A DNA stretch of 36,437 nt, from positions 1 to 36,437 of the IMG/VR virus record IMGVR_UViG_3300044615_001192. One strand, given 5' to 3'. Shown in pieces: positions 3,711-34,952 of this stretch (position 1 is the first letter of the stretch; the number at the start of each line of letters is the position of its first letter). The position numbers and the translations under genes are program-made. The DNA is from a virus. The notes beneath the pieces were generated by a model. It did no database searches, was not told the origin of the DNA, and saw only the letters and a list, made by a program, of their open reading frames with translations.

Positions 3711-5295
3711 CGCCACCGCACGCATCGCCCAGCTGGACGCGCAGGCGGATCAGCACGCTCACCAGCCCCAGGCCCCCTACACCGGCACCCTCGAGGACTA
3801 CATCCGCTCGGTCTGCCCCTCGTTCCCCTGGAGCCCCCACACCCATCGCCTGGTGGGCCTTGCGCAGCGCGTGGCCGATGGCGTGATCCGCCGCCTGATG
3901 GTGGAGCTGCCCCCGCGACACTTCAAGAGCACGATCTTCTCGATCTTCCTGCCGGGCTACTTCCTGCGGCGCTACCCCAACCGCTCGGCCGGCATCGGCT
4001 GCCACACCGCCACCCTGGCCGAGGGGTTCAGCCAGGATGCCCGCGATTACTTCACCGCCTCAGGTGGTGCCCTGTCCCCCACCTCCGGTGGCGTCAAGAA
4101 GTGGGGCACCAGCGGCATCGGCGGCCTGTGGACCGCAGGGGTCGGCGGCGGCACCGGCAACCCCGGCGACCTGATCGTGGTGGATGACCCGATCAAGTCC
4201 CGCGAGATGGCGGAATCAGCCGCCTGGCGCCGACAGGTGCACAGCTGGTGGGATTCAGTGCTGAGCACCCGGGAGGAGCCCGGCAATGCCGTCGTGATCG
4301 TGCACACCCGCTGGCACAGCGCAGACCTGATCGGTTACCTGCTGGCCAAGAACGAGGAGCTGGAGAGGGAGGGCCTGGAGGCGCAGTGCGAGCCCTGGCA
4401 TGTGGTCTCCATGCCGATCCAGGCGGTGCCCGCCAACAACATCAAGCCCCTGCCCCGCACCGTCACCCGCGAGGCTGACGACCGCACCCCGGGCCAGGCC
4501 CTCGACCCCAGCCGCTTCGATGAGCCCTGGATCGAGCGCAAGCGGGCCAACTTGCCCAGCCGCGACTGGGAAGCGCTCTACCAGCAGGCGCCCACCGAGG
4601 CATCCGGCACGATCTTCAGCCGCGACAGCATCCGGCACTACGTGCTGCCGGGTCAGGAGGGTCAGGACGGCGACCTGCTGCTGCCGGATCGCGGCATCCG
4701 CCGGCTCGCATCCGTCGACGCGACGTTCAAGGACAGCGCCGGGTCAGACATGGTTGGCATCGGTCTGTGGCTGCAGACCCAGGAGGGCATGTTCCGGCTG
4801 GATCAGATCAACCGCCGCATGGGGTTCCACGACACGCTGCAGACCCTGCGGCAGCTGCACCCGGTCTGGGCGTTCACCGAGCTGCTGATCGAGGACAAGG
4901 CCAACGGCCCCGCGATCATCGACACCCTCAAGCGCGAGGCCGCCGGCTTCATGGTTCATGCCGTCAACCCCATGGGCGGCAAGGTTGCCCGGGCTGAGGC
5001 CGCCGCCGTTCAGTTCCGCCAGGGCCGCGTGTTCCTGCCCCGCCATGCGCCATGGCTCGGCGAATACACCACCCAACTACTGGCCTTCCCGTCGGGCACG
5101 TTCGATGACCTGGTGGACGAAACCAGCCAGGCCCTGAACTTCTGCGCCGGCACCGGACCGATGCGGGTGACCACCGTGTCCCATGGCCGTGGCGCATCGG
5201 GCCCGGAGGAGCAGCTGAACCCGCTCGACACCACCGACACGACCGGTGCGGTCGAGTGGCGCCGGCCGGAACCCAAGCCGCTGGCGTTCCGATGA
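3691..5295 (+). CDS. terL: Terminase large subunit
   Basis: The 534-residue motor protein couples ATP hydrolysis to DNA packaging and cuts the concatemer. The ATPase half shows a Walker A-like PPRHFKST (74-81) and Walker B LIVVDD (161-166), followed by VHTRWHS (205-210). The RNase H-like nuclease half shows SVDATFKD (341-348), IEDKANG (400-406) and FDDLVDE (471-477), giving the acidic metal-binding residues. The pattern fits the terminase subfamily with the psiM2-type C-terminal domain. ATG 3691 was chosen over upstream in-frame codons because it gives the usual N-terminus. Confidence 0.93.
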   Translation: MPTRCPNATARIAQLDAQADQHAHQPQAPYTGTLEDYIRSVCPSFPWSPHTHRLVGLAQRVADGVIRRLMVELPPRHFKSTIFSIFLPGYFLRRYPNRSAGIGCHTATLAEGFSQDARDYFTASGGALSPTSGGVKKWGTSGIGGLWTAGVGGGTGNPGDLIVVDDPIKSREMAESAAWRRQVHSWWDSVLSTREEPGNAVVIVHTRWHSADLIGYLLAKNEELEREGLEAQCEPWHVVSMPIQAVPANNIKPLPRTVTREADDRTPGQALDPSRFDEPWIERKRANLPSRDWEALYQQAPTEASGTIFSRDSIRHYVLPGQEGQDGDLLLPDRGIRRLASVDATFKDSAGSDMVGIGLWLQTQEGMFRLDQINRRMGFHDTLQTLRQLHPVWAFTELLIEDKANGPAIIDTLKREAAGFMVHAVNPMGGKVARAEAAAVQFRQGRVFLPRHAPWLGEYTTQLLAFPSGTFDDLVDETSQALNFCAGTGPMRVTTVSHGRGASGPEEQLNPLDTTDTTGAVEWRRPEPKPLAFR

Positions 5296-5307
5296 GCACA
5301 ACCACCA

Positions 5308-5317
5308 CCGGCAACCT
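5308..5317 (+). promoter_or_regulatory. Start-associated element, copy 1
   Basis: CCGGCAACCT is a one-base variant of the recurrent element. Its last base lies 23 nt before ATG 5340, which has no Shine-Dalgarno and no overlap with the gene upstream. Confidence 0.5.
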
Positions 5318-5339
5318 CCCATGATCCTCACCGCCACCG

Positions 5340-5564
5340 ATGGCCCAGCAGCCCCCGACCGCCGATCCCCTGGAGGCCCTGCAGACCGTGACCAGCGAGC
5401 AGCTGAGGGGCTGGCCAGTGGGGGGCTGGTGGCGGATCCACCAGGGGATGCTGCAGCTGCGGGCCTACGGGGGCGAGTGGCAGCAGCCGAACCCGGCCCA
5501 GCTCGCCGCCGGTCCCGGCGGGCTGATCGCCTGGCAGGGGCGGGTGATGGTGCGGGAGCACTGA
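5340..5564 (+). CDS. Hypothetical small protein (74 aa)
   Basis: The product is MAQQPPTADPLEALQ... with a Trp/Gln-rich middle (GWPVGGWWRIHQG, about 24-36). Codons are strongly GC-ending, unlike the competing longer frame that reads through the same bases. It follows the large terminase after a 44-base gap carrying a start-associated element, and its stop overlaps the sigma factor frame as CTGA. Function unknown. Confidence 0.65.
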   Translation: MAQQPPTADPLEALQTVTSEQLRGWPVGGWWRIHQGMLQLRAYGGEWQQPNPAQLAAGPGGLIAWQGRVMVREH

Positions 5565-6379
5565 GCGAGCGGCTCAGGCCCTGGCGCATCGTCCACCCTG
5601 AAACCGGGGAGGTGATCGACAGCGAGGACTTGATCAGCCGCAACCTCGACCTGGCCCGCTCGGTTGCCTGGCGCTGGTCGCGCAAAAGCGGCATGGCCTA
5701 TGACGACATGGAGGCCCTGGCGTTCATGGGCCTGGTCAAGGGCGTGCGCCGCTACGACCCGCTGCGCATCAATCCCCGCAGCGGCCGGCCCTACAGCCTG
5801 AGCACCATCGCCTGCCCCTTCATTCAGGGCGAGATCCTGCACTGGTTCCGGGACAAGGGCTACCACGTGCGCTACCCCAGCCGCTGGCGGGAGGTGGGCC
5901 CCAAGGCCCGGCGGATGCTGGAGCAGGGCGCACCGGTCGATGCGGTCTGCGAAGCCTGCGGGATCAGCGCGGAGGAGCTGGAGGAGATGCTGGGCGCCAT
6001 GGCCGGCACCACCGAGCTGCAGGACCACCTGCAGGGCCAGCCCGATGCCGAGGTGGAGGAGGACGTGCTGGCGCCGCTGTGGGGCCTGCTGCAGCGTGCC
6101 TGGGGTCTACTGCATCCGGGTGATCGCGGCCTGATCGAGCGGTACTGGGAGGGGCTGAGCCGCGACGGGTTCCCCCATCGATCGCTGCGGGCCCTCCACA
6201 ACTGCGTCGCCATGGCGGCCGGCAACCGCCCGGTCATCACCTACCGGCAGCAGGAGCTGGCGCTGACCGTTGCCAGCGTGACCCCCAAGAAGCGGGAACG
6301 GCAGCCCCGTGGTCGCAGCCGCGATGAACTGGAGGCCCTGCCGGCGGTGCAGCTGGCGCTGCTGGTGCCGGGCCTGTAA
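5561..6379 (+). CDS. SigB/SigF-like sigma-70 family RNA polymerase sigma factor
   Basis: Residues about 28-108 match sigma region 2: NLDLARSVAWRW, YDDMEALAFMGLVKGVRRYDP (core binding) and IQGEILHWFRDKGYHVRYPSRW (-10 recognition). The last part resembles the SigB/SigF group motif. Region 3 is plausible at about 110-150; region 4 is divergent and ends in a basic segment KKRERQPRGR. It probably redirects host RNA polymerase to phage genes. The start is unsettled: CTG 5561 would fit the NTGA overlap habit of this genome, while GTG 5612 would remove 17 plausible residues. The open frame upstream of 5561 is a shadow of the 74-aa gene. Confidence 0.75.
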   Translation: MSERLRPWRIVHPETGEVIDSEDLISRNLDLARSVAWRWSRKSGMAYDDMEALAFMGLVKGVRRYDPLRINPRSGRPYSLSTIACPFIQGEILHWFRDKGYHVRYPSRWREVGPKARRMLEQGAPVDAVCEACGISAEELEEMLGAMAGTTELQDHLQGQPDAEVEEDVLAPLWGLLQRAWGLLHPGDRGLIERYWEGLSRDGFPHRSLRALHNCVAMAAGNRPVITYRQQELALTVASVTPKKRERQPRGRSRDELEALPAVQLALLVPGL

Positions 6380-6435: not shown

Positions 6436-7347
6436 ATGGCCCAGATCACCACCCAAGGCGCCTGGTTCGAGCACGGTGGCGAGCGCCTGCGGCTGATCGG
6501 TAGCCACAGCTGGCACGGCCCCCAGTCAATCGGCGGCGCCCGGATCCAGCAGCAGCAGCTGGTGGGCAACTTCACCGCCGCCTGGCTCTGGGAAGCCCCC
6601 GTCTGGGACACAACAGGCAGCAAGTACGCCGGGGGCGAGGGCCGGCCCATGGCGGTGGAACCGATGGCCTGGCAGCGCCGCGATGGCCGCTTCGACCTCA
6701 GCCGGCCCAACCCGGAGCTCTACCGCCGCCTGCGCCAGTTCGTGGTCGCATCGAACCGCGCCGGGCGCATCTGCAACGTGATCCTGTTCGAGGGCACCCA
6801 GCCCGCCTATGCCAACAGCTGGCACGGGCATCCGTTCCGCAGCGGGAACAACCACCAGGGCATCGCCCACAGCCGGCCGGAGCAGGTCCACCAGCTGGGG
6901 CGCCACAACCGGTACCAGCGCGAGCACGTCGACCGGGTGATCGCTGCGGTCGAGGGCCTGCAGGTGGTGCTGGAGGTCGGCAACGAGCTGCGGCCCAGCA
7001 GCCATGCCTGGCAGCGGGCGATGGTGCGGCACATCAAGACGCAGACCCGGATTCCGGTCGGCGTCAGCTTCACCCCCGGCGCCGGTGATGGGTGGATGGC
7101 CACCACGGGGGCGGACTGGTGGAGCCCCGGATGGCACGAGGGGCCGGTGACGGGCGCCCGGGTGCCCCAGGTGATGAACACCGACCACGGCATCGCGCTG
7201 CGCAACGACCCCGCAGGGGTGGAGCGCCACCACCGGGCCGGCCACAGCGTGCTGGTGATGGATGCGCTGAGCGAGACGGTCCTGAAGAACTTCGGCAGCC
7301 TGCAGCCCACCCGCGACCTGATCACCGGCCTGGTGCGCCGCTTGTAG
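6436..7347 (+). CDS. Putative TIM-barrel glycoside hydrolase
   Basis: The 303-residue protein begins with a WFEHGGERLRLIGSHSWHG segment typical of cellulase-like (clan A) hydrolases. It carries VLEVGNEL (178-185), in which Asn183-Glu184 matches the acid/base Asn-Glu pair. VMDALSE (274-280) could hold the nucleophile Glu. The family cleaves polysaccharide glycosidic bonds. No signal peptide or membrane segment is visible, so it could be a virion depolymerase or a lysis enzyme. It begins 56 bases after the sigma gene. The catalytic assignment is pattern-based. Confidence 0.6.
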   Translation: MAQITTQGAWFEHGGERLRLIGSHSWHGPQSIGGARIQQQQLVGNFTAAWLWEAPVWDTTGSKYAGGEGRPMAVEPMAWQRRDGRFDLSRPNPELYRRLRQFVVASNRAGRICNVILFEGTQPAYANSWHGHPFRSGNNHQGIAHSRPEQVHQLGRHNRYQREHVDRVIAAVEGLQVVLEVGNELRPSSHAWQRAMVRHIKTQTRIPVGVSFTPGAGDGWMATTGADWWSPGWHEGPVTGARVPQVMNTDHGIALRNDPAGVERHHRAGHSVLVMDALSETVLKNFGSLQPTRDLITGLVRRL

Positions 7348-10509: not shown

Positions 10510-10519
10510 CCGGAAACCT
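10510..10519 (+). promoter_or_regulatory. Start-associated element, copy 3
   Basis: CCGGAAACCT. The last base is 21 nt before the portal start GTG 10540. It lies in a divergent intergenic region, so it heads a new plus-strand unit. Confidence 0.6.
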
Positions 10520-10539
10520 GAAGGGAGCAGGGCGCAGGC

Positions 10540-12174
10540 GTGCAGCGACTCGATCACCCCACCAAGGACCCCAAGCTGCCCAGCTACGTGGGGCCGGCCC
10601 TGCGCCGGGTGATGGCGGACCTGGAGGTCACCCACGACTGCTGGAACCTGCTGCGCACGCCCGGTGCGGCCAAGGGCCAGGAAGATGCCCTGCTGCGCCG
10701 GTATCTCCCCAAGGAGCCCCGCGAGCCACCCGAGGCCTACCGGGTGCGGCTGGCCTACAGCCGCTACCCCAGCTTCTTTCCGGATGCCATTCGGTCGTTC
10801 AGCGGTGTGCTGAGCCGGTTCCAGCTGGCCAGCCCGCCCCCGACCCTGGAGGCCGCCGCCAGCAACATCGACCGGCAGGGCAACAGCCTGAAGGCCCTGC
10901 TGACCGCAGCAGACCAGGGCGTGATGCGTGACGGCGGCTGCTACCTGATGGTCGACATGCCGGCAGGGCGGCCCGGATCACTGGCCGAGGAGGTCGCCTC
11001 CGGCCGCCGGCCCTACCTGACCCTGGTCGATCGCGCTGATGTGCTGAGCTTCCGGGTCGCCATGGTCGGCACCGCCCAGGTCGCCACCCAGGTGGTGGTG
11101 CGCGAGTGGGTGGAAGTGCCGGACGACGACGGCGCCTATGGCACCACGATCGAGGCCCGGTACCGGGTGATCACCACCCAGGCTGGTGTCACCAGCTGGC
11201 AGGTGCTGAAGCTGACCAAGGACGGCAACGGCACCTACGGGGCGGCGGTGGACACCGATGAGCAGGGCCAGCCCCGTGAGGCCAGCTACGAGGCCGCTGG
11301 CGGCAGGCCGTTCCCCAGGCCACCGATCGTCTGGTATCCGAGCCGGATCGCGGAGGGCTTCGGGCAGGGGGCGGTGCCGCTGATCGGCCTGGCGCTCGAC
11401 ACCCTTGATCACTTCCGCACCCGGGCGGACCAGAAGGAGCTGATGCGCAAGCTGGCCATGCCGGTGCCCGTGCGGACTGGGATGCCGCCGCCGGCACCGG
11501 GCCAGCCACAGCCCGTGGTGACCCTGGGGGCCAACACGTTCCTGGATCTCCCGCAGGGCAGCAGCTTCGATTTCAAGGGCCCGCCCAGTGACAGCCTGGC
11601 GCCACGGGCGGCCGAGGTGGAGCACATCGAGGGGCTGATCCGCGAGCAGACCCTGGCGTTCATGTACGGCACTGGCGGCGGGGCCAAGACCGCCACCCAG
11701 GCCGACCTGGAGGGCGTGAGCAGCCAGGCCAATATCCGCACCATGGCTGAGGCCAAGGTCAACGCGGTTCAGCAGCTGCTCGAGCTGTGGACCCTGTTCA
11801 CCGGTGAGCCGCTGGAGCCTGATGCCGGGATCGTGATGGATGCCAACCTGCACGATCGGCCCCTGGGCCCGCAGGACACGGCGCAGCTGTCGGCGCTGGC
11901 CATGAATGAGCTGCTGAGCCAGCGCAGCCTGACCGAGATCCTGATTCGCGGTGGGGTGAACACGGCGGCCACGTCGCCAGAGCAGGAGCTGCAGCGGCTG
12001 GAGGCTGAGCGGCAGGCCCGTGAGGCCGCGATGGGCGACCTGGCACCAGACGACCCGAGCCTGATCGATGACGCCGAGCTGCCGGTGAGTGAGCTGCAGG
12101 CCACCCCTGACGGGGCGAACGGCACCGGCGGCACTGACGGGGGACAGATCGGACAGGGTGGGGCCGACGCATGA
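10540..12174 (+). CDS. Portal protein (DUF4055-like)
   Basis: The 544-residue protein fits the DUF4055 portal family. It shows the YLPKEPREPPEAYRVRL opening (about 50-66), a FPDAIRSFSGVLSRFQ segment, NIDRQGNSLKALL, and GCYLMVDMPAG (about 130-140), then the clip/stem and a variable Glu/Asp-rich C-terminus. Twelve copies form the DNA channel at the capsid vertex. The GTG start follows a start-associated element. It overlaps the MuF gene by four bases (ATGA), as expected for a head module. Confidence 0.8.
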   Translation: MQRLDHPTKDPKLPSYVGPALRRVMADLEVTHDCWNLLRTPGAAKGQEDALLRRYLPKEPREPPEAYRVRLAYSRYPSFFPDAIRSFSGVLSRFQLASPPPTLEAAASNIDRQGNSLKALLTAADQGVMRDGGCYLMVDMPAGRPGSLAEEVASGRRPYLTLVDRADVLSFRVAMVGTAQVATQVVVREWVEVPDDDGAYGTTIEARYRVITTQAGVTSWQVLKLTKDGNGTYGAAVDTDEQGQPREASYEAAGGRPFPRPPIVWYPSRIAEGFGQGAVPLIGLALDTLDHFRTRADQKELMRKLAMPVPVRTGMPPPAPGQPQPVVTLGANTFLDLPQGSSFDFKGPPSDSLAPRAAEVEHIEGLIREQTLAFMYGTGGGAKTATQADLEGVSSQANIRTMAEAKVNAVQQLLELWTLFTGEPLEPDAGIVMDANLHDRPLGPQDTAQLSALAMNELLSQRSLTEILIRGGVNTAATSPEQELQRLEAERQAREAAMGDLAPDDPSLIDDAELPVSELQATPDGANGTGGTDGGQIGQGGADA

Positions 12175-13250
12175 CCCGCAGCGGCCCATCCGTGGGCGCC
12201 GCATCCCTGCAGCTGGCGGAGGACTATGCCGCGCAGCTGGACGCCCTGGGGCGCCGGTCTGAGGCCGCCACCTACCGGGTGCTGGTGCGCAGCCTGAGGG
12301 GCATCCTGGGCGAGCTGCGCCGCGCCTATGGCCGCTACCTGGACGTGGAGCAGCCCGATGCGATCGACCCGGCCGGCAATGCCATCCAGCGCAGCGGGGC
12401 AGCGGTGGTGCGCGAGGCCTCGACCCGGTTGCTGACCGTGCTCAATGCCGCCGAGGGGTTCATGCCCGAGCGGGAGCTGGGCGAGTGGGAGGAGCAGTTC
12501 AGGACCGACCTGGAGGCTGCGCAGCGGCTGGGCGGCGACCTGGGTGTGCAGCTGGCGCAGCTAGTGGCCGATGCACCGAGCGCTGTGCAGGGCGGGTTCA
12601 ACGCCCCGGCGGTGGAGGCCGCCAGCCGCTCGGCATCGGCCTACATCCGTAACGTGAGCACGGACTTCCGCCAGCAGATCGTGCAGATCACCGGCGAGGC
12701 GGCCAGCCGGGGGTGGGGCCCCAGCCGGATGGAGCTCCAGGTCAGGCGGGCGCTGGCGGGGGAGGGGCAGACCGCAGGGCTGCGGCAGCGTGCGGCGCTG
12801 ATCGCCCGCTCCGAGCTGGCCAATGCCTATGTGCAGGGCCAGATCGACAACGCCCGCCGCAACCGGTTCGACTATGTGCGATGGATCGCGGTGCGCGACG
12901 AGCGGACCTGCCCGTTCTGCGTCTCCCGCCATGGGCAGATCTACCCGGTGTCAGCCGTGGTGATGCCGGCCCATCCACGCTGCCGGTGCGTGGCATCACC
13001 GGTGCCGCAGGAGGCGGTGGAGGGCGACCCCGAGGTCCGCAGGGCCCTGACGGACGAGGCCTACTGGGAGGACAGCCAGAAGCAGGCCTGGAGCGAATAC
13101 GCCGAGGCCAAGGGCAAGACCCTCGACGAGGTGCGGGGCGAGCTGGTGCGTGCCCAGCGGCAGCCCACGGCCAGCGAGCGGCGCCGCTACCCGGGAATCC
13201 CGAGCAGCCTGCCGCCGAGCCTGGCGGTGCGGTGGTACGGAGGAGAGTGA
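12171..13250 (+). CDS. MuF-type minor head protein
   Basis: The protein has 359 residues. The Mu F domain lies at about 165-276: FRQQIVQIT...RGWGPSRMELQVRRAL, AALIARSELANAYVQGQ, WIAVRDERTCPFCVSRHGQ (238-256) and MPAHPRCRCV (265-274). These include the paired CxxC and HPRCRC metal-like motif. MuF proteins sit with the portal in the procapsid and may be injected. No toxin domain is fused; the C-terminal 80 residues are charged and helical. Confidence 0.88.
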   Translation: MTRSGPSVGAASLQLAEDYAAQLDALGRRSEAATYRVLVRSLRGILGELRRAYGRYLDVEQPDAIDPAGNAIQRSGAAVVREASTRLLTVLNAAEGFMPERELGEWEEQFRTDLEAAQRLGGDLGVQLAQLVADAPSAVQGGFNAPAVEAASRSASAYIRNVSTDFRQQIVQITGEAASRGWGPSRMELQVRRALAGEGQTAGLRQRAALIARSELANAYVQGQIDNARRNRFDYVRWIAVRDERTCPFCVSRHGQIYPVSAVVMPAHPRCRCVASPVPQEAVEGDPEVRRALTDEAYWEDSQKQAWSEYAEAKGKTLDEVRGELVRAQRQPTASERRRYPGIPSSLPPSLAVRWYGGE

Positions 13251-13277: not shown

Positions 13278-13478
13278 TCACGCAACCCAGAAGCCGTCCT
13301 CGGGATCCCAGGTGATGAGCGCTGCCCAGTCGGGCATCATCGGGTCGTAGGCCAGCTCCAGGGCCCTCCGCAGCTGATCGGCGTCAACCGTGATGGCGCC
13401 ACCGTCGACGCTCCAGCTGTGCAGGCCATTGCCGATGGCGGTCTGGGCCATCAGGTCGTCAACGGTGGGGGCGGTCAT
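13278..13478 (-). CDS. Small acidic protein (66 aa)
   Basis: It begins MTAPTVDDLMAQT and includes GGAITVDADQLRRALELAYDP and a C-terminal WAALITWDPEDGFWVA. It has an acidic, Trp-rich end and looks like a small alpha/beta domain. It is the last gene of the third minus-strand unit and converges on the MuF gene. No clear terminator is visible in the 27-base gap. Function unknown. Confidence 0.6.
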   Translation of the reverse strand: MTAPTVDDLMAQTAIGNGLHSWSVDGGAITVDADQLRRALELAYDPMMPDWAALITWDPEDGFWVA

Positions 13479-13533
13479 GGGACTGGGAGAGGGGATGGGT
13501 TGCCGGCTTTTCGGCGCCCGGCGGGCCGTGTGG

Positions 13534-13761
13534 TCAGGTCAGGGCATCAATCGCGGCTTCGATGGCCCGCTGCTCCTGCTCGATCTGATCGAGCTCCTGG
13601 CGGCCCAGCTCCATCTGTAGCGCCAGGTCGGTCAGCCGGACCGCCACACTGCCGGTGCGCAGCAGCGCCTCTATGCGGGCGTCGGTCTCGGCCGCTTCCG
13701 CAATGAGGGTGTTCACCTCCGCCAGCAGGGCGTCAGCGTCAATCGTGGTGGGGTGGTCCAT
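13534..13761 (-). CDS. Small coiled-coil protein (75 aa)
   Basis: Nearly the whole length is predicted helix with heptad-like spacing (LLAEVNTLIAEAAETDARIEAL and LGRQELDQIEQEQRAI), suggesting a dimeric coiled coil. It is the middle gene of the third minus-strand unit. Function unknown. Confidence 0.6.
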   Translation of the reverse strand: MDHPTTIDADALLAEVNTLIAEAAETDARIEALLRTGSVAVRLTDLALQMELGRQELDQIEQEQRAIEAAIDALT

Positions 13762-13784
13762 GGCGGTGGCGTGTGGCCTGGTGG

Positions 13785-13979
13785 TCAGTCGTTGCGCTCG
13801 AGCTCGAACTCCAGATCACAGACCGAACTGATCAGGCTGGCGACCAGTGGGTGCTGCTCCTCGAGCCGCTCATAGGCGTCATCCGTGTAGCCGTCGCGGA
13901 TGGCCTGCAGGGCCTCGACCACCTCAGTTGAGGCGGCGAGGACGGCGGCGAGCTGCTTGATCGCGGTGGCGATGCTCAT
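13785..13979 (-). CDS. Small acidic helical protein (64 aa), first of a minus-strand unit
   Basis: ATG 13979 (MSIATAIKQLAAVLAAS) is chosen over a longer frame because the promoter at 14020-14025 and its hairpin lie inside the extended version. The product is helical and ends in an acidic stretch CDLEFELERND. Function unknown. Confidence 0.6.
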   Translation of the reverse strand: MSIATAIKQLAAVLAASTEVVEALQAIRDGYTDDAYERLEEQHPLVASLISSVCDLEFELERND

Positions 13980-13996
13980 GGGTCCGTGCGTGTGCC

Positions 13997-14025
13997 GGGG
14001 TCTCACCCCCGATGCGCAGATCATA
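13997..14025 (-). promoter_or_regulatory. Minus-strand promoter with 5'-end hairpin
   Basis: TATGAT (14025-14020) is followed about ten bases later by GGGG TGAGA CCCC (14010-13997). Sequence around it parallels the region at 9832-9876, including GCGGATCGGT upstream and a CCGGC-ACACGCA leader before the ATG, suggesting a duplicated control region. Confidence 0.6.
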
Positions 14026-14063
14026 CCCCATCGCATCGCCCCCGCCACCGATCCGCTCCAGAA

Positions 14064-14073
14064 CCGGTAACCT
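14064..14073 (+). promoter_or_regulatory. Start-associated element, copy 4
   Basis: CCGGTAACCT, a one-base variant. The last base is 22 nt before GTG 14095. It is divergent from the minus promoter at 14020-14025. Confidence 0.5.
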
Positions 14074-14094
14074 GCCGGCAACCGCCGCGCCACC

Positions 14095-14292
14095 GTGCTG
14101 CCGACAGACCTGGGCCTGCGGTCGTTCCTGATGCTGCACATGACCGTGGAGGCCCGCGACGACGTGGCCACCCGGCAGGCGCTGCGCGAGGTGGCTGAAA
14201 CCATGCCTGACCGCGAGGGGCACCGGATCGTCAATACGCTGCGCCAGACCCTGCCGCCGGAGGGCCAGCGGTGGCTGGCGAGCCTCCGGTGA
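14095..14292 (+). CDS. Small hypothetical protein (65 aa)
   Basis: It begins MLPTDLGLRSFLMLHMTVEARDD under GTG 14095 and is helical, with mixed charge. It follows a start-associated element and overlaps the next gene as GTGA. Located between the MuF gene and the MARTYKRD paralogues; function unknown. Confidence 0.6.
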   Translation: MLPTDLGLRSFLMLHMTVEARDDVATRQALREVAETMPDREGHRIVNTLRQTLPPEGQRWLASLR

Positions 14293-14486: not shown

Positions 14487-15152
14487 GTGGCCCGAACCTA
14501 CAAGCGCGATGCCAATGGTCGCTTTGCCGGCGGCGGCGGCAGCGCATCACGCAAGGCACCGGCCCCACGTCAGCGGGGTACCAACAGGATCACCAGGGAC
14601 AACGCCGGCAGGATCACCTCGGTGGGCGGCCAGGGTGCCACCGCCAGGGGCGGGCGGTTGCGAACGGCATCAGGCAACCGCCGCACTGCTGTCACGGCCA
14701 AGGCGGCCGGGCGCATCGATGGCACGGTCAGGAAGGGCGGCAGCAGGCTGCCGAAGGGGCAGCGGAACGAGGGCACCGCGATTCCGAGGCCCACCACGGG
14801 TGGCGCGGCGTCTCGGCCTGGATCGATGACCGCGACGTTGCGAGGCGCGATGCGAGCACTGGCGCAGGCTGACGCCAGGTTCATCAGGGAGGTCGAGGGA
14901 ATCACCGGTCAGCCACTGCGTGCGTCCCGTGGTGGCGGCAGCGCTGCAGCAGGGCGGGTGCGGGCGACTGCTCGAAGCGGCAGGGTGACCGATACGCTGC
15001 GGGCCGGGCTGCGCGAGCTGGCGCAAAGCGACGCACGGATGGCAAGGGGCTTGGCCGAGATCGCCAGGGACGCCACCCCCAGGCTGAGCGGCAGCAGCAG
15101 GAGCGGCGGCAGGCGGATCGGTGCCAGCAGGCGGCGACTGGCGGGTGGTTGA
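14487..15152 (+). CDS. MARTYKRD paralogue 1: basic, low-complexity protein (221 aa)
   Basis: It begins MARTYKRDANGRFAGGGGS and carries a second module, RDNAGRITSVGG followed by GATARGGRLRTA (about residues 32-57). The remainder is Gly/Ser/Arg/Ala-rich with a few helical pieces (LRAGLRELAQSDARMARGLA), and is very basic. KRD-x-x-GRFA tags occur in phage head proteins, but the function of this group is not known to me. It is first of three tandem paralogues lying where capsid genes usually sit. Possible roles are an internal capsid or DNA-binding protein (inference). Confidence 0.65.
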   Translation: MARTYKRDANGRFAGGGGSASRKAPAPRQRGTNRITRDNAGRITSVGGQGATARGGRLRTASGNRRTAVTAKAAGRIDGTVRKGGSRLPKGQRNEGTAIPRPTTGGAASRPGSMTATLRGAMRALAQADARFIREVEGITGQPLRASRGGGSAAAGRVRATARSGRVTDTLRAGLRELAQSDARMARGLAEIARDATPRLSGSSRSGGRRIGASRRRLAGG

Positions 15153-15153
15153 C

Positions 15154-15163
15154 GCGGAAACCT
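15154..15163 (+). promoter_or_regulatory. Start-associated element, copy 6
   Basis: GCGGAAACCT, then GATTCAGATCCCC. The last base is 24 nt before ATG 15187. Similarity with copies 5 and 7 extends beyond the core. Confidence 0.65.
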
Positions 15164-15186
15164 GATTCAGATCCCCTCCCCGCCCC

Positions 15187-15747
15187 ATGGCCCGCACTTA
15201 CAAACGCGACACCTTCGGTCGTTTCGCAGGAGGCGGCGGCGGCGGAGGCAAGCTGGGCAAGTCGGCCAAGAACAGCGGCGCCAGGGCCAAGTTCAAGGCA
15301 GCAGCCAGCCAGCTGCGTGATGCCACCAAGACTGCCCAGAAGCAGGCCGCAAAGGCTGGCGCACCGAACGCCATGGGTCGCGGGTACCTGAAGACCGCAC
15401 GGGCGAACATGACCCGGACCACGAACAAGCTGACCGGTCGTGGTGCTGCCAGCCGACCGGCGGCAGGCCCTGTTGCGGCTCGCTCCGCGTCAGCACCCGC
15501 GTCAGCACCCGCGTCAGCACCAGGCAAGCGGATGCGCCAGAGCCGGGACAATGCCGGGCGGATCACCGCAACGGGGCAGGGCGCAACGGCCCGTGGCGGG
15601 CGGCTGGCGACTGCCAGCGGCAAGAAGCGGGCGGCCCAGACCAGCAGGCTGCGCGGCGGCGGGGCCAACACGATCGCCAAGGGCGGCAACGGCATCAGCG
15701 GCAGCGTGGCCAGGAGCCTGCGGTCGATGAGGGCGAAGCGGGGCTGA
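15187..15747 (+). CDS. MARTYKRD paralogue 2: basic, low-complexity protein (186 aa)
   Basis: The N-terminus MARTYKRDTFGRFAGGGG is shared with its two neighbours. The second module (SRDNAGRITATGQGATARG...LATASGKKRA) lies near residue 120 instead of near residue 32, with a Lys/Ala-rich insert between, so the modules have been separated. DNA repeats encode SAPASAPASAP near residue 105. Very basic and probably disordered. Function unknown. Confidence 0.65.
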   Translation: MARTYKRDTFGRFAGGGGGGGKLGKSAKNSGARAKFKAAASQLRDATKTAQKQAAKAGAPNAMGRGYLKTARANMTRTTNKLTGRGAASRPAAGPVAARSASAPASAPASAPGKRMRQSRDNAGRITATGQGATARGGRLATASGKKRAAQTSRLRGGGANTIAKGGNGISGSVARSLRSMRAKRG

Positions 15748-15748
15748 G

Positions 15749-15758
15749 GCGGAAACCT
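15749..15758 (+). promoter_or_regulatory. Start-associated element, copy 7
   Basis: GCGGAAACCT, then GAGCTAGATCCCC. The last base is 23 nt before ATG 15781. Confidence 0.65.
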
Positions 15759-15780
15759 GAGCTAGATCCCCCGTAGCCCC

Positions 15781-16692
15781 ATGGCCCGCACATACAAGCG
15801 CGATGCGCTCGGTCGCTTTGCCGGCGGAGGTGGTGGCGGTGGGCGACCGAAAGCCAGATCGGTTGCGCGTGGCGCCAACCGGCTGACCAGGGACAACGCG
15901 GGGCGGATCACCAGCGTCGGTGGCGATGGTGCGACCGCCAGGGGTGGCAGGCTGCGCACGGCCGGGGGCAAGCAGCGGGCCGTGCAGACGGCGCGACTCA
16001 AGGGGCGCGGAGCGATCGGCAGGGCGAACGGTGCGACAGGGGTTCGCGCTGTGGCCAAGGCATACGGTCGCGGAGTTAATGCCCAAAAAGTGGAGAGGAT
16101 GCTGGGGAGACTGCAGAAAAGCCCTTCCTATCAAGGAAAAACCCGAAGATTGATTTCCTCTAAGGAGTCTGCCGGAAGCAAAACACGGCAACGCGCTGCA
16201 GACTTTCTGAGTAAACAGGCTGGTCTTCAGCCTGACGGAACGAGTATGGGGCGCAAGCGCTGGAAGTCGCCTGAAGGCATGACGCGGCAACGGATGGTGC
16301 AGAACCTTGCCGACAGCCTTCCGAATCAGCCTCGAAGAAGCACGGCAAAAACAGGCAATAAGAAGCTAGTTACAAGAGCCCAGAAACGTGAACAAAGGAT
16401 TCAGGAAAGGCTTAATCCGCCGCGAGCTAGCTATGCGTTTGGCAAGAATGAGCCCAAGCCGAGAGGCCCTAAGCAGCTGTCGCAGCGCTACGACGGCGGC
16501 ACCGCTCGTGCCAGTCGAAGTCTTGCCGGCGCCGCCGCTCGTCAGCGTGACCGGCGCCGGACGGTTGAGTCGCTTGTCGGCACGGGTCGCCTAATGCGGC
16601 AAGGGGCGATGCTGCAAAGAGGCAGAGCTGAGCAGGTAAATCTGCTCGGAGGCCGCACCACTACTTACGGTCGCCTGCTGCGTCGCTCCTGA
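15781..16692 (+). CDS. MARTYKRD paralogue 3: basic protein with an AT-richer middle (303 aa)
   Basis: It shares MARTYKRDALGRFAGGGG and the RDNAGRITSVGG / GATARGGRLRTA module (about 39-64) with paralogues 1 and 2. From about base 16075 to 16480 the composition becomes clearly AT-richer, and the protein changes to a Lys/Arg/Ser-rich domain (KVERMLGRLQKSPSYQGK, KKLVTRAQKREQRIQERL). It then returns to the GC-rich style. This looks like a foreign segment inserted in the common frame. Function unknown. Confidence 0.65.
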   Translation: MARTYKRDALGRFAGGGGGGGRPKARSVARGANRLTRDNAGRITSVGGDGATARGGRLRTAGGKQRAVQTARLKGRGAIGRANGATGVRAVAKAYGRGVNAQKVERMLGRLQKSPSYQGKTRRLISSKESAGSKTRQRAADFLSKQAGLQPDGTSMGRKRWKSPEGMTRQRMVQNLADSLPNQPRRSTAKTGNKKLVTRAQKREQRIQERLNPPRASYAFGKNEPKPRGPKQLSQRYDGGTARASRSLAGAAARQRDRRRTVESLVGTGRLMRQGAMLQRGRAEQVNLLGGRTTTYGRLLRRS

Positions 16693-16895: not shown

Positions 16896-16905
16896 CCGGA
16901 AACCT
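16896..16905 (+). promoter_or_regulatory. Start-associated element, copy 8
   Basis: CCGGAAACCT. The last base is 22 nt before ATG 16927. It forms an inverted repeat with the adjacent minus-strand copy. Confidence 0.6.
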
Positions 16906-16926
16906 GAGCCGCACCGCACCACCGCC

Positions 16927-17106
16927 ATGACCGCCCCCACCTACGCCAGCTCCGTCACCGCCGTGGGCCGGCTGCTGCGCCCCCGTGACAACGAGCCCCG
17001 CGTCCACCGCGTGCTGGCGGTCTCCCCCGCTGGCACGGTGCGGCGGGTGGTGGATCGGCGCCTGACGGGCGGGAAACCTGAGGGCAGCAAGCCGGCCGCC
17101 GGATGA
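16927..17106 (+). CDS. Small basic protein (59 aa)
   Basis: It begins MTAPTYASSVTAVGRLLRP and is Arg/Val-rich with a probable beta-strand core (HRVLAVSPAGTVRRVVDRR). The end of the gene (GGKPEGSKP) is encoded by the next copy of the start-associated element. Its stop overlaps the next start (ATGA). It lies at the head of the connector block; function unknown. Confidence 0.6.
   Translation: MTAPTYASSVTAVGRLLRPRDNEPRVHRVLAVSPAGTVRRVVDRRLTGGKPEGSKPAAG
17070..17079 (+). promoter_or_regulatory. Start-associated element, copy 9 (inside a gene)
   Basis: CGGGAAACCT, in the coding end of the preceding small gene. The last base is 24 nt before ATG 17103. Confidence 0.5.
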
Positions 17107-17591
17107 TCCCTGCACTGAACAGCCTCTGGCGCGAGTCTGACCGGCAGGCGGTGATGCGTTACGCCGGCATCGCCTTCACCGAGAGCCAGCTGACGCACAT
17201 CACCAGCGGCATGAACAGCGTGGCCGGGTTTTCCCCGGCTGCGGTGACTCAGTGCCGGGGGTGGATCGACGAGGCCGATGCGCTGGAGGCCACCTACGCG
17301 GGCCGAGTGGCGGCGGGTGATGCGCACCTGGATTCGGCCAAGAGCTACGAGGGCCTGCGGCCTGGGGCCAGCGTGACCCGCGAGGACATGCTGAGTCAGG
17401 CGGACGTCCTGCAGTGGGACACGCAGACCCAGTACCGCGTGCGGTTCGAGGCGGGCGAGGGCGCCAGCGGCACCGCCAACGGCATCAGCGGCGCCAGGAT
17501 CGCTGACCTGCAGGGCCGGGTGCTGCGTGCGCTGGGCCTCGAGGACGGCGCCTACGGGGGCTACGGCCAGGGCCAGCTGGTGAGGGGCTGA
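17103..17591 (+). CDS. Probable head-tail connector protein (162 aa)
   Basis: The protein is mainly helical (LNSLWRESDRQAVMRYAGIA, WIDEADALEATYAGRVAAGD) with a Gly-rich C-terminus. Position after the portal and MuF genes and before a gp10-like protein is where the helical adaptor that docks on the portal ring is normally encoded. The assignment rests on position and helical content, not on a recognised motif. It overlaps the next gene by TGATG. Confidence 0.45.
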   Translation: MIPALNSLWRESDRQAVMRYAGIAFTESQLTHITSGMNSVAGFSPAAVTQCRGWIDEADALEATYAGRVAAGDAHLDSAKSYEGLRPGASVTREDMLSQADVLQWDTQTQYRVRFEAGEGASGTANGISGARIADLQGRVLRALGLEDGAYGGYGQGQLVRG

Positions 17592-20076: not shown

Positions 20077-20916
20077 ATGGCACAGAACTGGAAACAGGCC
20101 TACGGCTACAAGTTCTGGATCAGCCCGATCCTCAAGGACTCGATCAACTTCGCCACCCTGCTGCCGACCGCAGGCCTGGGCACCGGCAAGTTCATCGACA
20201 ACAGCACCCCGCTGGCCAACAACCTGGCGGTGATCAAGGCCGGCACCGGCGCCACCCTGGGCCTGGGCGTGGGCACGCTGAAGGTGATCACCAACGCGGC
20301 GCTGGCCACCAACGAGGTCACCCTGACCTTCGCGGCGGCCCATGGGTTCACCGTGGCGCAGCGGATCGTGGTGGCCAACCTGCCGGCCCCGTTCACCAGC
20401 CTCAACGGCACCTACACCGTGAAGGCGGTGACCACCAGCTCGCCGTTCACGCTGACCTACGACAAGACCGGCAGCAACATCGCCTCGGCGGCGGTCGCTG
20501 CCGGCGGTGTGCTGCCGGCCCTGGTGCTTGACGGCACCGCCAGCCCGATCCGGCTGCTGGGCCTGAGCAACGCGGCGCCGGAGGAGGGCGAATCGGAGGA
20601 GACCGTCGACACCTACGACGACGAGCTCCAGGGCTTCGATGCCAGCCTGGCCACGAAGAAGACCTTCAGCTGGACCCTGGAGGGGGTGAGCGATCACAAC
20701 GACACCGCCTACAAGCTGCTGCGCCTGTGCTCGAAGGAGTCGGTGCGCGAGGGCCTGATGGTCAAATACGCGCGTGTGGGCCCCACCGGCGTGAACGAGG
20801 TGACCTATGGCTTCGGGCGGTTCACCGGCTTCAGCGAAACCCCGCCGGCTGCTGGTGTGGTGCGCTGGAGCAGCACGCTCAAGGCCTACGGCCCCTATGA
20901 GCTGGAGTTCGCCTGA
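20077..20916 (+). CDS. Major tail protein with inserted Ig-like module (279 aa)
   Basis: The C-terminal half reads as a tail-tube protein: ETVDTYDDELQGFDASLATKK, FSWTLEGVSDHNDTAYKLL, VTYGFGRFTGFSETPPA and a final KAYGPYELEF strand. Residues about 68-146 form an extra beta-rich module (HGFTVAQRIVV, LNGTYTVKAVTT, FTLTYDKTGSN) also found inside the major capsid protein. The tube domain polymerises around the tape measure, while the module probably decorates its surface. A weak element variant lies at 20032-20041, but 36 nt from this ATG. A strong terminator follows the gene. Confidence 0.75.
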   Translation: MAQNWKQAYGYKFWISPILKDSINFATLLPTAGLGTGKFIDNSTPLANNLAVIKAGTGATLGLGVGTLKVITNAALATNEVTLTFAAAHGFTVAQRIVVANLPAPFTSLNGTYTVKAVTTSSPFTLTYDKTGSNIASAAVAAGGVLPALVLDGTASPIRLLGLSNAAPEEGESEETVDTYDDELQGFDASLATKKTFSWTLEGVSDHNDTAYKLLRLCSKESVREGLMVKYARVGPTGVNEVTYGFGRFTGFSETPPAAGVVRWSSTLKAYGPYELEFA

Positions 20917-32201: not shown

Positions 32202-32996
32202 GTGCGACTTCGATTCAACAACTTCCCCGAACTCAGCGCGACGCTGATGGGGGTTACCAGCACCGTCGAGCCCGGCACGGATGACGCTGCCGGCGGCGGT
32301 GGATCTGGCGGCAGCGGTACCGATGAGCAGCTGGGTGATGCGGGCCTGCGGGCGCTGCAGGCCGAGCGCGACCGGGCCAAGGCGCTCGACAGGGAGCTCA
32401 GCACCCTGCGCACCCAGATGAAGGCCCTGGAGGGCCGCATCGACCCGGAGACGTTCGCCCAGGTCAAGGCCGAGGCTGACGAGGCCCAGCGCAAGCTGGC
32501 GGAGCAGCAGCAGGCGGTCGAGCGGGTCAAGGCTGAGGCTGAGGCCACCTATGGGCAGCAGCTGCGCACGGTGCAGGAGCAGCTGAACGCCGAGAAGCAG
32601 GCGCGGGTCGAGGAGCGTCGCCGGGTCGTCCTCGAGCGTGTGTTCCAGGCGGCCAAGGGCCGGAATGGCGCGGACGAGCTGGGCACCAGCTACTTCGACC
32701 TGTTCTATGGCCAGCGGGCCAGCAGCTACGCCCTGGCGGACGACGGCAGCCCCTATGTGGTCGATCCCACGGGCCAGCCCGTGATCGACAGCGAGACGGG
32801 CAAGCGGGTGGACCCGATCGCCTGGACCCGGACGGTGGCGCAGCGGTCGCCGGTGCTGGGGATCCTGTTTGAGCCGGAGCAGGGCACCGGTGGCGGCTTC
32901 AACAGCAGCCGAGGTGCCGCCCTGTCTGACGGGCAGGACCTGTCGAAGCTCAGTCCGTCTCAGCTGATGACAGCGGCCTACCAGCGGGGCAGCTGA
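32202..32996 (+). CDS. Capsid scaffolding protein (264 aa)
   Basis: A Gly/Asp-rich N-terminal part is followed by a long charged coiled coil (about residues 45-150; LQAERDRAKALDRELSTLR, LAEQQQAVERVKAEAEA). A C-terminal domain ends with LSKLSPSQLMTAAYQRGS. Length, coiled coil and position just before the capsid gene match scaffolds of HK97-fold phages. GTG 32202 is preferred on element spacing, while an ATG at 32247 is an alternative. No protease motif seen. Confidence 0.75.
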   Translation: MRLRFNNFPELSATLMGVTSTVEPGTDDAAGGGGSGGSGTDEQLGDAGLRALQAERDRAKALDRELSTLRTQMKALEGRIDPETFAQVKAEADEAQRKLAEQQQAVERVKAEAEATYGQQLRTVQEQLNAEKQARVEERRRVVLERVFQAAKGRNGADELGTSYFDLFYGQRASSYALADDGSPYVVDPTGQPVIDSETGKRVDPIAWTRTVAQRSPVLGILFEPEQGTGGGFNSSRGAALSDGQDLSKLSPSQLMTAAYQRGS

Positions 32997-33102: not shown

Positions 33103-33174
33103 ATGCCCCGGGCAAACCGGCGCGAGGCCGTCTTCCCAACCCTTCCCCCTCTGGAGACCCTGACATGGGTATGA
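33103..33174 (+). CDS. Possible leader peptide before the capsid gene (23 aa)
   Basis: ATG 33103 opens a frame MPRANRREAVFPTLPPLETL... ending at a TGA that overlaps the start of the capsid gene (33165). The start is 19 nt after a start-associated element, close to the usual spacing. A short ORF whose stop lies in the next start region could couple or regulate capsid translation. It is too short to judge by coding content. Confidence 0.3.
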   Translation: MPRANRREAVFPTLPPLETLTWV

Positions 33175-34337
33175 CCCTGCTGGAGGCGGCCAAATACGTT
33201 CAGGACCCCCTGACCCTGGCCACCATCCGAACCATCGCCGAAGGCCCGATCATGGGCGTTCTGCCGTTTGAGAACACCCCTGGCGCCGGCCTGTTTTACA
33301 ACCAGGAAGGCATCCTGCCCAACGTCGGCTTCCGTGGCATCAATGAAGCCCACGGCAAGAGCTACGGCGTGCTGAACCCGATGAGCGAGGCCCTGCGCCC
33401 GTTCGGCGGTGACATCGACGTGGACAAGTTCATCGTCGAGACCCGTGGCGAAGGTGCCCGCACCAGCCAGACCCTGCAGCAGGTCCGCAGCGCCCGCAAG
33501 GCGTTCGAGGATCTGTTCGTCAACGGCAACAGCGGCACCGATCCCCGCCAGATGGATGGCCTGCGGGCCCGGGTGACCAGCGCCACCAGCCAGTACTTCA
33601 ACAACGGCAACGGCGCCCTGTCCCTGTCCTTCCTGGACCAGGTGATCGGCGACGTGGAAGCCGATGGCGCCCAGAAGTACCTGGTGATGCCGAAGCGCCT
33701 GGCCCAGCGGTTCATCGCTGCCAGCCGCACCACCACCGTGACCGGTTTCGTGCCGCACCAGCGGGATGAGATGGGCCGGATGGTGGCGCAGTACGGGGAG
33801 TGCATCATTCTGGAGACCGACGTGAACGGTCAGAACCAGAAGATCCAGCCGTTCACCGAGGGCTCGGAGGTCGTCGCCACCGTGAGCAACGTGGCCCTGA
33901 CCAGCGACGTGGCCACGCTGACCATCAGCTCGGGTCACGGGATCGTGGTGGGCAACACCATCACGGTGGCTGGCGTGACCAACAACAGCAACCTGTTCAA
34001 CGGCAGCTACACGGTGACCGCCGTGACTGCCACCTCGGTGAGCTACGCCAAGACCAATGCCAACGTGACCTCTGCCGCTGCCACCGGCACCGGCCGGGTG
34101 AGCGTGGTCACTGGTGCCACCTGCTCGATCTACTGCGTCGCCTTCGGTGACCAGCTGACCACGGGCATCCAGGGCTCCATCGGCGGCCAGTTCGGCCCCG
34201 AGGTGCGTGACCTTGGCGAGGTCCACGACGCGCCGGTCTTCCGCACCCGGATGGACTGGAACGTGGGCATGGCCGTGCTGAACGGCAAGTCCGTGGCCCG
34301 GTACGCCGGCATCACCGACGCGGCCATCGTGGCCTGA
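33165..34337 (+). CDS. Major capsid protein with inserted Ig-like module (390 aa)
   Basis: The protein begins MGMTLLEAAKYVQDPLTLAT and follows the HK97-fold capsid pattern: an N-terminal arm, TFLVNGNS-type E-loop/spine region (RKAFEDLFVNGNSGTD, 111-126), KYLVMPKRLAQRFIA, and a C-terminal EVHDAPVFRTRMDWNVG...ARYAGITDA. Residues about 234-318 are an extra beta module (HGIVVGNTITV, FNGSYTVTAVTATSVSY) that also occurs in the major tail protein. ATG 33165 has GGAG about eight bases upstream, one of the few clear Shine-Dalgarno sites here, fitting high expression. Confidence 0.85.
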   Translation: MGMTLLEAAKYVQDPLTLATIRTIAEGPIMGVLPFENTPGAGLFYNQEGILPNVGFRGINEAHGKSYGVLNPMSEALRPFGGDIDVDKFIVETRGEGARTSQTLQQVRSARKAFEDLFVNGNSGTDPRQMDGLRARVTSATSQYFNNGNGALSLSFLDQVIGDVEADGAQKYLVMPKRLAQRFIAASRTTTVTGFVPHQRDEMGRMVAQYGECIILETDVNGQNQKIQPFTEGSEVVATVSNVALTSDVATLTISSGHGIVVGNTITVAGVTNNSNLFNGSYTVTAVTATSVSYAKTNANVTSAAATGTGRVSVVTGATCSIYCVAFGDQLTTGIQGSIGGQFGPEVRDLGEVHDAPVFRTRMDWNVGMAVLNGKSVARYAGITDAAIVA

Positions 34338-34922: not shown

Positions 34923-34932
34923 GCGGAAACCT
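34923..34932 (+). promoter_or_regulatory. Start-associated element, copy 15
   Basis: GCGGAAACCT, directly after the terminator. The last base is 21 nt before GTG 34953, and this spacing selects that start. Confidence 0.6.
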
Positions 34933-34952
34933 GCGGCAGCTGCAGCCTGCCC

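Follow-up and report, generated by a model that had tools for sequence, protein, structure and literature searches.

Three consecutive ORFs on the plus strand of an IMG/VR virus record, here termed P1, P2 and P3, encode proteins with a common N-terminus (MARTYKRDxxGRFAGGGG) and mutually unrelated C-terminal parts, which raises the question of what a constant protein start is doing on such different remainders. The window, that is, the whole stretch of 36,437 nucleotides analyzed, contains terminase, portal, MuF, scaffold, major head and tail genes, with the three paralogues placed between the MuF and connector-like genes (Table 1). The original prediction had put them in the usual capsid-gene position. 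They do lie within the head/tail block, but the idea that they stand in place of the capsid gene must be rejected because the major head protein was located elsewhere, at 33162-34337. Clues to the host are limited to a cyanophage-like portal (nearest cyanophages S-CBS2, PSS2 and S-CRES1-3, with 35-37% identity) and one cyanobacterial MAG contig described below. The major head protein and the major tail protein (20077-20916) were also seen to have an inserted domain in common; both match phrog_9998, and the head-protein query aligns with the tail-protein region at 38-41% identity.

Table 1. Positions of the genes and late-type elements of the window that are discussed in the text.
Feature	Position	Strand	Remarks
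Phage sigma factor	5246..6379	+	phrog_36098, E=9e-28
Late-type element before portal gene	10511..10521	+	
Portal protein	10540..12174	+	phrog_145, E=4e-65
MuF minor head protein	12171..13250	+	PF04233; 359 aa
Late-type element before P1	14458..14468	+	GGGAAACCTGA
P1	14487..15152	+	tagged protein, 221 aa, GTG start
Late-type element before P2	15155..15165	+	CGGAAACCTGA
P2	15187..15747	+	tagged protein, 186 aa; module shifted, starting at residue 120
Late-type element before P3	15750..15760	+	CGGAAACCTGA
P3	15781..16692	+	tagged protein, 303 aa
Late-type element before companion gene	16897..16907	+	bounds P3 cassette together with P3 element
Companion gene	16927..17106	+	59 aa; family TAVGRLLKPKxxEPRxxxVIAVxPDGTVxTVI
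Late-type element before connector-like gene	17071..17081	+	
Connector-like gene	17103..17591	+	preceded by element 17071..17081
Scaffold-like protein	32202..32996	+	phrog_1793, E=1e-4
Major head (capsid) protein	33162..34337	+	phrog_212, E=5e-57

The shared start and the RDNAGRIT and GATARGGRL motifs first noticed in the three paralogues are all present in the ORFs. In P1 and P3 alike, RDNAGRIT begins at residue 37 and GATARGGRL at residue 50, and in P2 they begin at residues 120 and 132, respectively; the downstream shift of this module in P2, put originally at about 90 residues, is thus real and measures 83. In P1, the N-terminus and the module are followed by two TLRxxLRxLAxxDAR-type helical repeats. 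Residues 1-80 of P3 match P1 far beyond chance (E=7e-25), and they also match both the displaced module of P2 (E=2e-11) and its N-terminus (E=7e-7). The similarity that had been thought to continue past the core is nevertheless limited in extent, since the C-terminal parts, which we call cargo, are unrelated among the three. The P1 cargo is also present in three other contigs (L028, L032 and G001), and L006:8001-8975 carries the same cargo as P3. As anticipated, the proteins are extremely basic and of low complexity (K+R 21-24%; G+A+S+R+K 56-68%; pI ~12), and the GC content, 69% for the window, is 53% in the middle part of the P3 cargo (16059-16450).

A scan based on P3 reached 35 viral loci, and reading these loci yielded 59 genes with the same N-terminus and unrelated C-termini. 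We refer to this N-terminus as the tag (consensus MARxYxRDxxGRF(A/S)xGGGG, with a 13-residue core). Among 57 aligned tagged proteins, a set that is itself partly tag-selected, M1, R3, R7, D8, G11, R12 and F13 are invariant, against a mean column identity of 12%. When searched for as a DNA pattern, in whose matches the pattern-fixed residues are necessarily invariant, the tag was found in at least 119 stretches of viral contigs versus 4 in 257 Gb of genome contigs, so the three paralogues are no local curiosity. Evidence free of this bias comes from where the tag starts, from the range of codons that encode it and from the loci that a search with the companion brought up. An ATG or GTG start codon, which the pattern did not demand, directly precedes the tag in 145 of the 150 distinct tagged ORFs among the matches listed, and the synonymous codons of the tag are saturated across these 150. 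The weight originally placed on a triple arrangement does not survive this survey: contigs of 17-65 kb carry from one to about six tagged genes (lower bounds, many contigs being fragments), and the number differs even among near-identical phages. Tagged genes are found before MuF, in the MuF-connector gap, between connectors and between tail genes, on both strands and at times as inverted clusters. All 58 non-redundant tagged proteins have a pI of 11-12 and a K+R content of 20-29%.

No model in Pfam, PHROG or NCBIfam covers the tag or the linker module, tblastn against cultured phages returned no match to the tagged proteins (low-complexity masking may hide the tag), and a literature search found no match to the tag sequence. 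These results bear out the initial statement that no such family had been described. Among genome contigs, a first scan gave zero confirmed tagged genes, and the four pattern matches include two tagged ORFs on L191 and only a chance piece on L189. The two L191 genes (L191:98-2318) lie on an uncultured cyanobacterium MAG contig and are the one clear example among the genome contigs; the contig may belong to a phage and have been binned together with the host genome.

The prediction that each paralogue has its own start-associated element also held up: with at most one mismatch allowed, CGGAAACCTGA has 9 matches in the window versus 0.34 expected. GGAAACCT occurs there in 12 copies, and the 11 on the plus strand lie 27-33 nt upstream of ORF starts, among them those of the portal, P1-P3, companion, connector and tail genes; for CGGAAACCTGA, the distance to tagged and structural genes is 27-34 nt. 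Related contigs have the same placement before ORFs, and in phages further removed TAGAAT/TAGACT-like boxes occupy the equivalent place. The CGGAAACCTGA element is probably a late promoter, with the phage sigma factor perhaps as its reader. An extra copy (CGGAAACCTGC, 34925-34934) precedes a short ORF between 34860 and 35212. Next to the sigma factor gene, before that for dCTP deaminase, is a 303-aa ORF (6436-7347) with no Pfam or PHROG match whose sequence looks glycoside-hydrolase-like by eye.

Comparison with close relatives reveals how the tagged genes come and go. The structural genes of G003 (L010) are mostly 87-100% identical to those of the window, yet this phage is without P3 and has one added tagged gene after MuF, at the start of the stretch equivalent to 13278-14234; in the window, that stretch between MuF and P1 holds small ORFs on the minus strand. 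L030 is without P1 and P3. The P3 cassette absent from both relatives is bounded by the elements in front of P3 and the companion gene, and the absence junctions fall inside the CGGAAACCTGA element; the junction element of L030 takes its left half from the P1 element and its right half from the P2 element. For L016-L025, a stretch of ~490 nt, made up of 120 nt of upstream sequence and the opening ~120 codons, is 94-100% identical, after which the cargo switches to other sequence. In T4-type phages, mobile regulatory cassettes made of a promoter and a stem-loop provide repeated promoters at which recombination adds or removes genes. The tagged genes are like these in that a repeated promoter-like element appears to be the recombination point, and unlike them in that the element is late-promoter-like and a coding tag is also common to the cassettes.

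Recognizable cargo domains number at most one per tagged protein, matches to known families are weak or partial only, and most cargos are basic helices without recognized function. An HExxH...E peptidase cargo is present in seven tagged proteins (G001, L008, L193/L194 as one protein, L089, L091, L179 and L093). The five members aligned have H112, E113, H116 and E166 in common, and all relatives found with this domain have the tag or a close variant, one of them with a different linker module. Single-sequence structure prediction of a whole tagged peptidase was unusable (pLDDT 45), and a prediction of the domain from a 5-row alignment was moderate (pLDDT 66), with a helix/strand order that agrees with the MPTase core of PMC5512222. 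In comparisons of this model with ArdC and minigluzincins, Foldseek gave E values of 0.6 or worse and VIA-align a Z of about 4; these are weak fold matches, and the likeness is no more than a hint. A sequence search of the PDB with the domain gave nothing significant. A DnaJ-like J-domain containing HPD was recognized in three tagged proteins, above the Pfam cut-off in one of them, and one tagged protein has an ADP-ribosyltransferase (ART) fold just above its cut-off. No nuclease or recombinase was found among the recognized cargo, and Phage_Mu_F had no match in the tagged proteins.

The companion protein has no Pfam or PHROG match, and its family ranges from 42 to 60 aa. When we searched with the companion only, a tagged ORF was found to end at most 300 nt upstream on the same strand in 62 of 77 loci; six of the other 15 have less than 360 nt of flank on the upstream side. 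Since the companion stays constant and the cargo varies, a role for it in immunity against a specific cargo is unlikely. One idea is that it is an adaptor for the tag.

The existence of the tag family, the N-terminal placement of the tag, the variety of the cargo, the element held in common with structural genes and the precise presence or absence of cassettes are thus directly supported. From these observations, and by analogy with known phages, we lean, without great confidence, toward a role for the tag as an N-terminal encapsidation signal on exchangeable cargo that is ejected with the DNA. Each gene would be an autonomous cassette built from a late promoter, the tag, an optional linker module (e.g. 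RDNAGRIT/GATARGGRL) and exchangeable cargo. Its product would be synthesized late, alongside the structural proteins, drawn into the prohead by the tag, held on the packaged DNA by its strong positive charge and carried out of the head with the DNA at ejection. Some cargos (peptidase, ART-like and J-domain) might then act in the cell, and the chief task of others may be to compact or protect DNA. By recombining at the promoter element and at their common 5' end, the cassettes would allow cargo to be gained, lost and swapped. The internal head or injected role suggested originally fits with the late-type element, the head/tail-block position, the constant N-terminus and the peptidase- and ART-like cargo.

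We favor the encapsidation-tag reading because the tag starts nearly all of the ORFs among the matches listed with its synonymous codons saturated, is nearly confined to viral contigs, and is invariant on unrelated cargo. It is further favored because the same element stands at a fixed distance before the portal, connector and tail genes; because cassettes sit variously, on both strands, within the structural block; because the absences of P1 and P3 are exact, with junctions in the element, and cargo switches after an identical 5' part; because the cargo includes HExxH...E peptidases, J-domains and an ART fold; and because N-terminal packaging signals on variable cargo have precedents in phages T4 (PMC3012670) and P1 (PMC9024508). 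Against it we count that the tag shows no established resemblance in sequence to known packaging signals and that most cargos have no recognized function. The prohead protease of T4-type phages cleaves the targeting sequence after a Glu. That the tag has no conserved Glu for such a site, and that a PHROG scan of part of the window genes gave no clear prohead protease (only phrog_530, E=0.047, on the scaffold), are likewise counted against it.

A further point against the encapsidation reading is the strongly basic nature of every cargo, even of the enzyme-like ones, since DNA binding by itself could account for much. The tagged proteins might instead be DNA-condensing virion core proteins of a protamine- or histone-like kind, in which the tag and the basic parts bind DNA and the differences in cargo are minor. 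The basicity of every non-redundant member and the low complexity of the proteins are what this would predict, but we consider it fairly unlikely because it leaves unexplained both a precise 13-residue N-terminal motif with conserved Y5, D8 and F13 and enzyme-like cargo with conserved catalytic-type residues. ART-like and peptidase cargo also better match effectors than late factors that stay unpackaged and serve in assembly or host takeover, for example head/tail assembly chaperones that the tag would direct to a common partner. Although the location among head/tail genes with a late-type element in common, the J-domain in three members and the tightly linked small companion protein would all suit such factors, the high turnover in near-identical phages is unlike that of essential assembly factors, and we judge this explanation to be quite unlikely. 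Cassettes that come and go exactly at a repeated element, and whose positions are scattered over both strands, might instead be selfish, with the promoter and 5' end serving chiefly as homology for recombination and the tag playing no part in targeting. This seems very improbable to us: the tag is kept as protein with its synonymous codons saturated, which argues that DNA homology is not what is conserved, and nuclease or recombinase cargo was not recognized.

If the tag does direct encapsidation, the tagged proteins invite comparison with several known systems. The capsid targeting sequence is the only constant part of the T4 internal proteins IPI-IPIII, and the tagged proteins are like these in having a short constant N-terminus on otherwise unrelated, highly diverse late proteins, with sets varying among related phages (PMC3012670). 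This likeness is one of layout; unlike its T4 counterpart, the tag is basic, has a GRF core and lacks a conserved Glu, and each tagged cassette, of which there are up to six, has its own element. For phage P1, 30 N-terminal residues of DarB suffice for packaging, and N-terminal stretches of 10-30 residues send large effector-type proteins to the capsid (PMC9024508); the Dar proteins are large, however, and have no tag family across dozens of cargos. Peptidase and ART domains are hub domains of injected polyvalent proteins (PMC5512222). The tagged proteins resemble these and MuF-fused effectors in their zincin-like peptidase domains (seven HExxH...E proteins, with weak fold matches of the modelled domain) and ART domain (one), and in their late region near MuF (PMC5512222). 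Polyvalent proteins nevertheless combine two to fifteen domains in one long chain, whereas tagged cargos are separate short genes with a common tag. Similarly, MuF polymorphic toxins join MuF and cargo in one polypeptide, whereas MuF is here a separate "bare" gene: no fused cargo domain was recognized in that of the window, and in those tag-bearing contigs in which MuF was measured it is likewise bare, with a stop-to-stop length of 356-425 aa. In the related cyanophage PSS2, the MuF of 1499 aa (L041:17516-22015) also contains a zeta-toxin domain (PF06414, E=1e-21) and is a fused alternative to separate tagged cargo.

In its broadest form, the encapsidation-tag reading would amount to a family-wide encapsidation code in uncultured phages, with a 13-residue tag loading the head with interchangeable effectors and the payload being reloaded by recombination of late-promoter cassettes; we put this forward as a tentative and still somewhat doubtful proposal. 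The reader of the tag is possibly a capsid component or the small companion protein. If this is correct, the tagged proteins would correspond to polyvalent proteins in unfused form, and the delivery signal would be separate from any single carrier. One short motif would then flag candidate injected proteins in many uncultured viral genomes that are unnamed in family libraries, thus providing a simple handle to find early-acting phage effectors, and the family would show how the payload of a phage changes with its capsid genes untouched.
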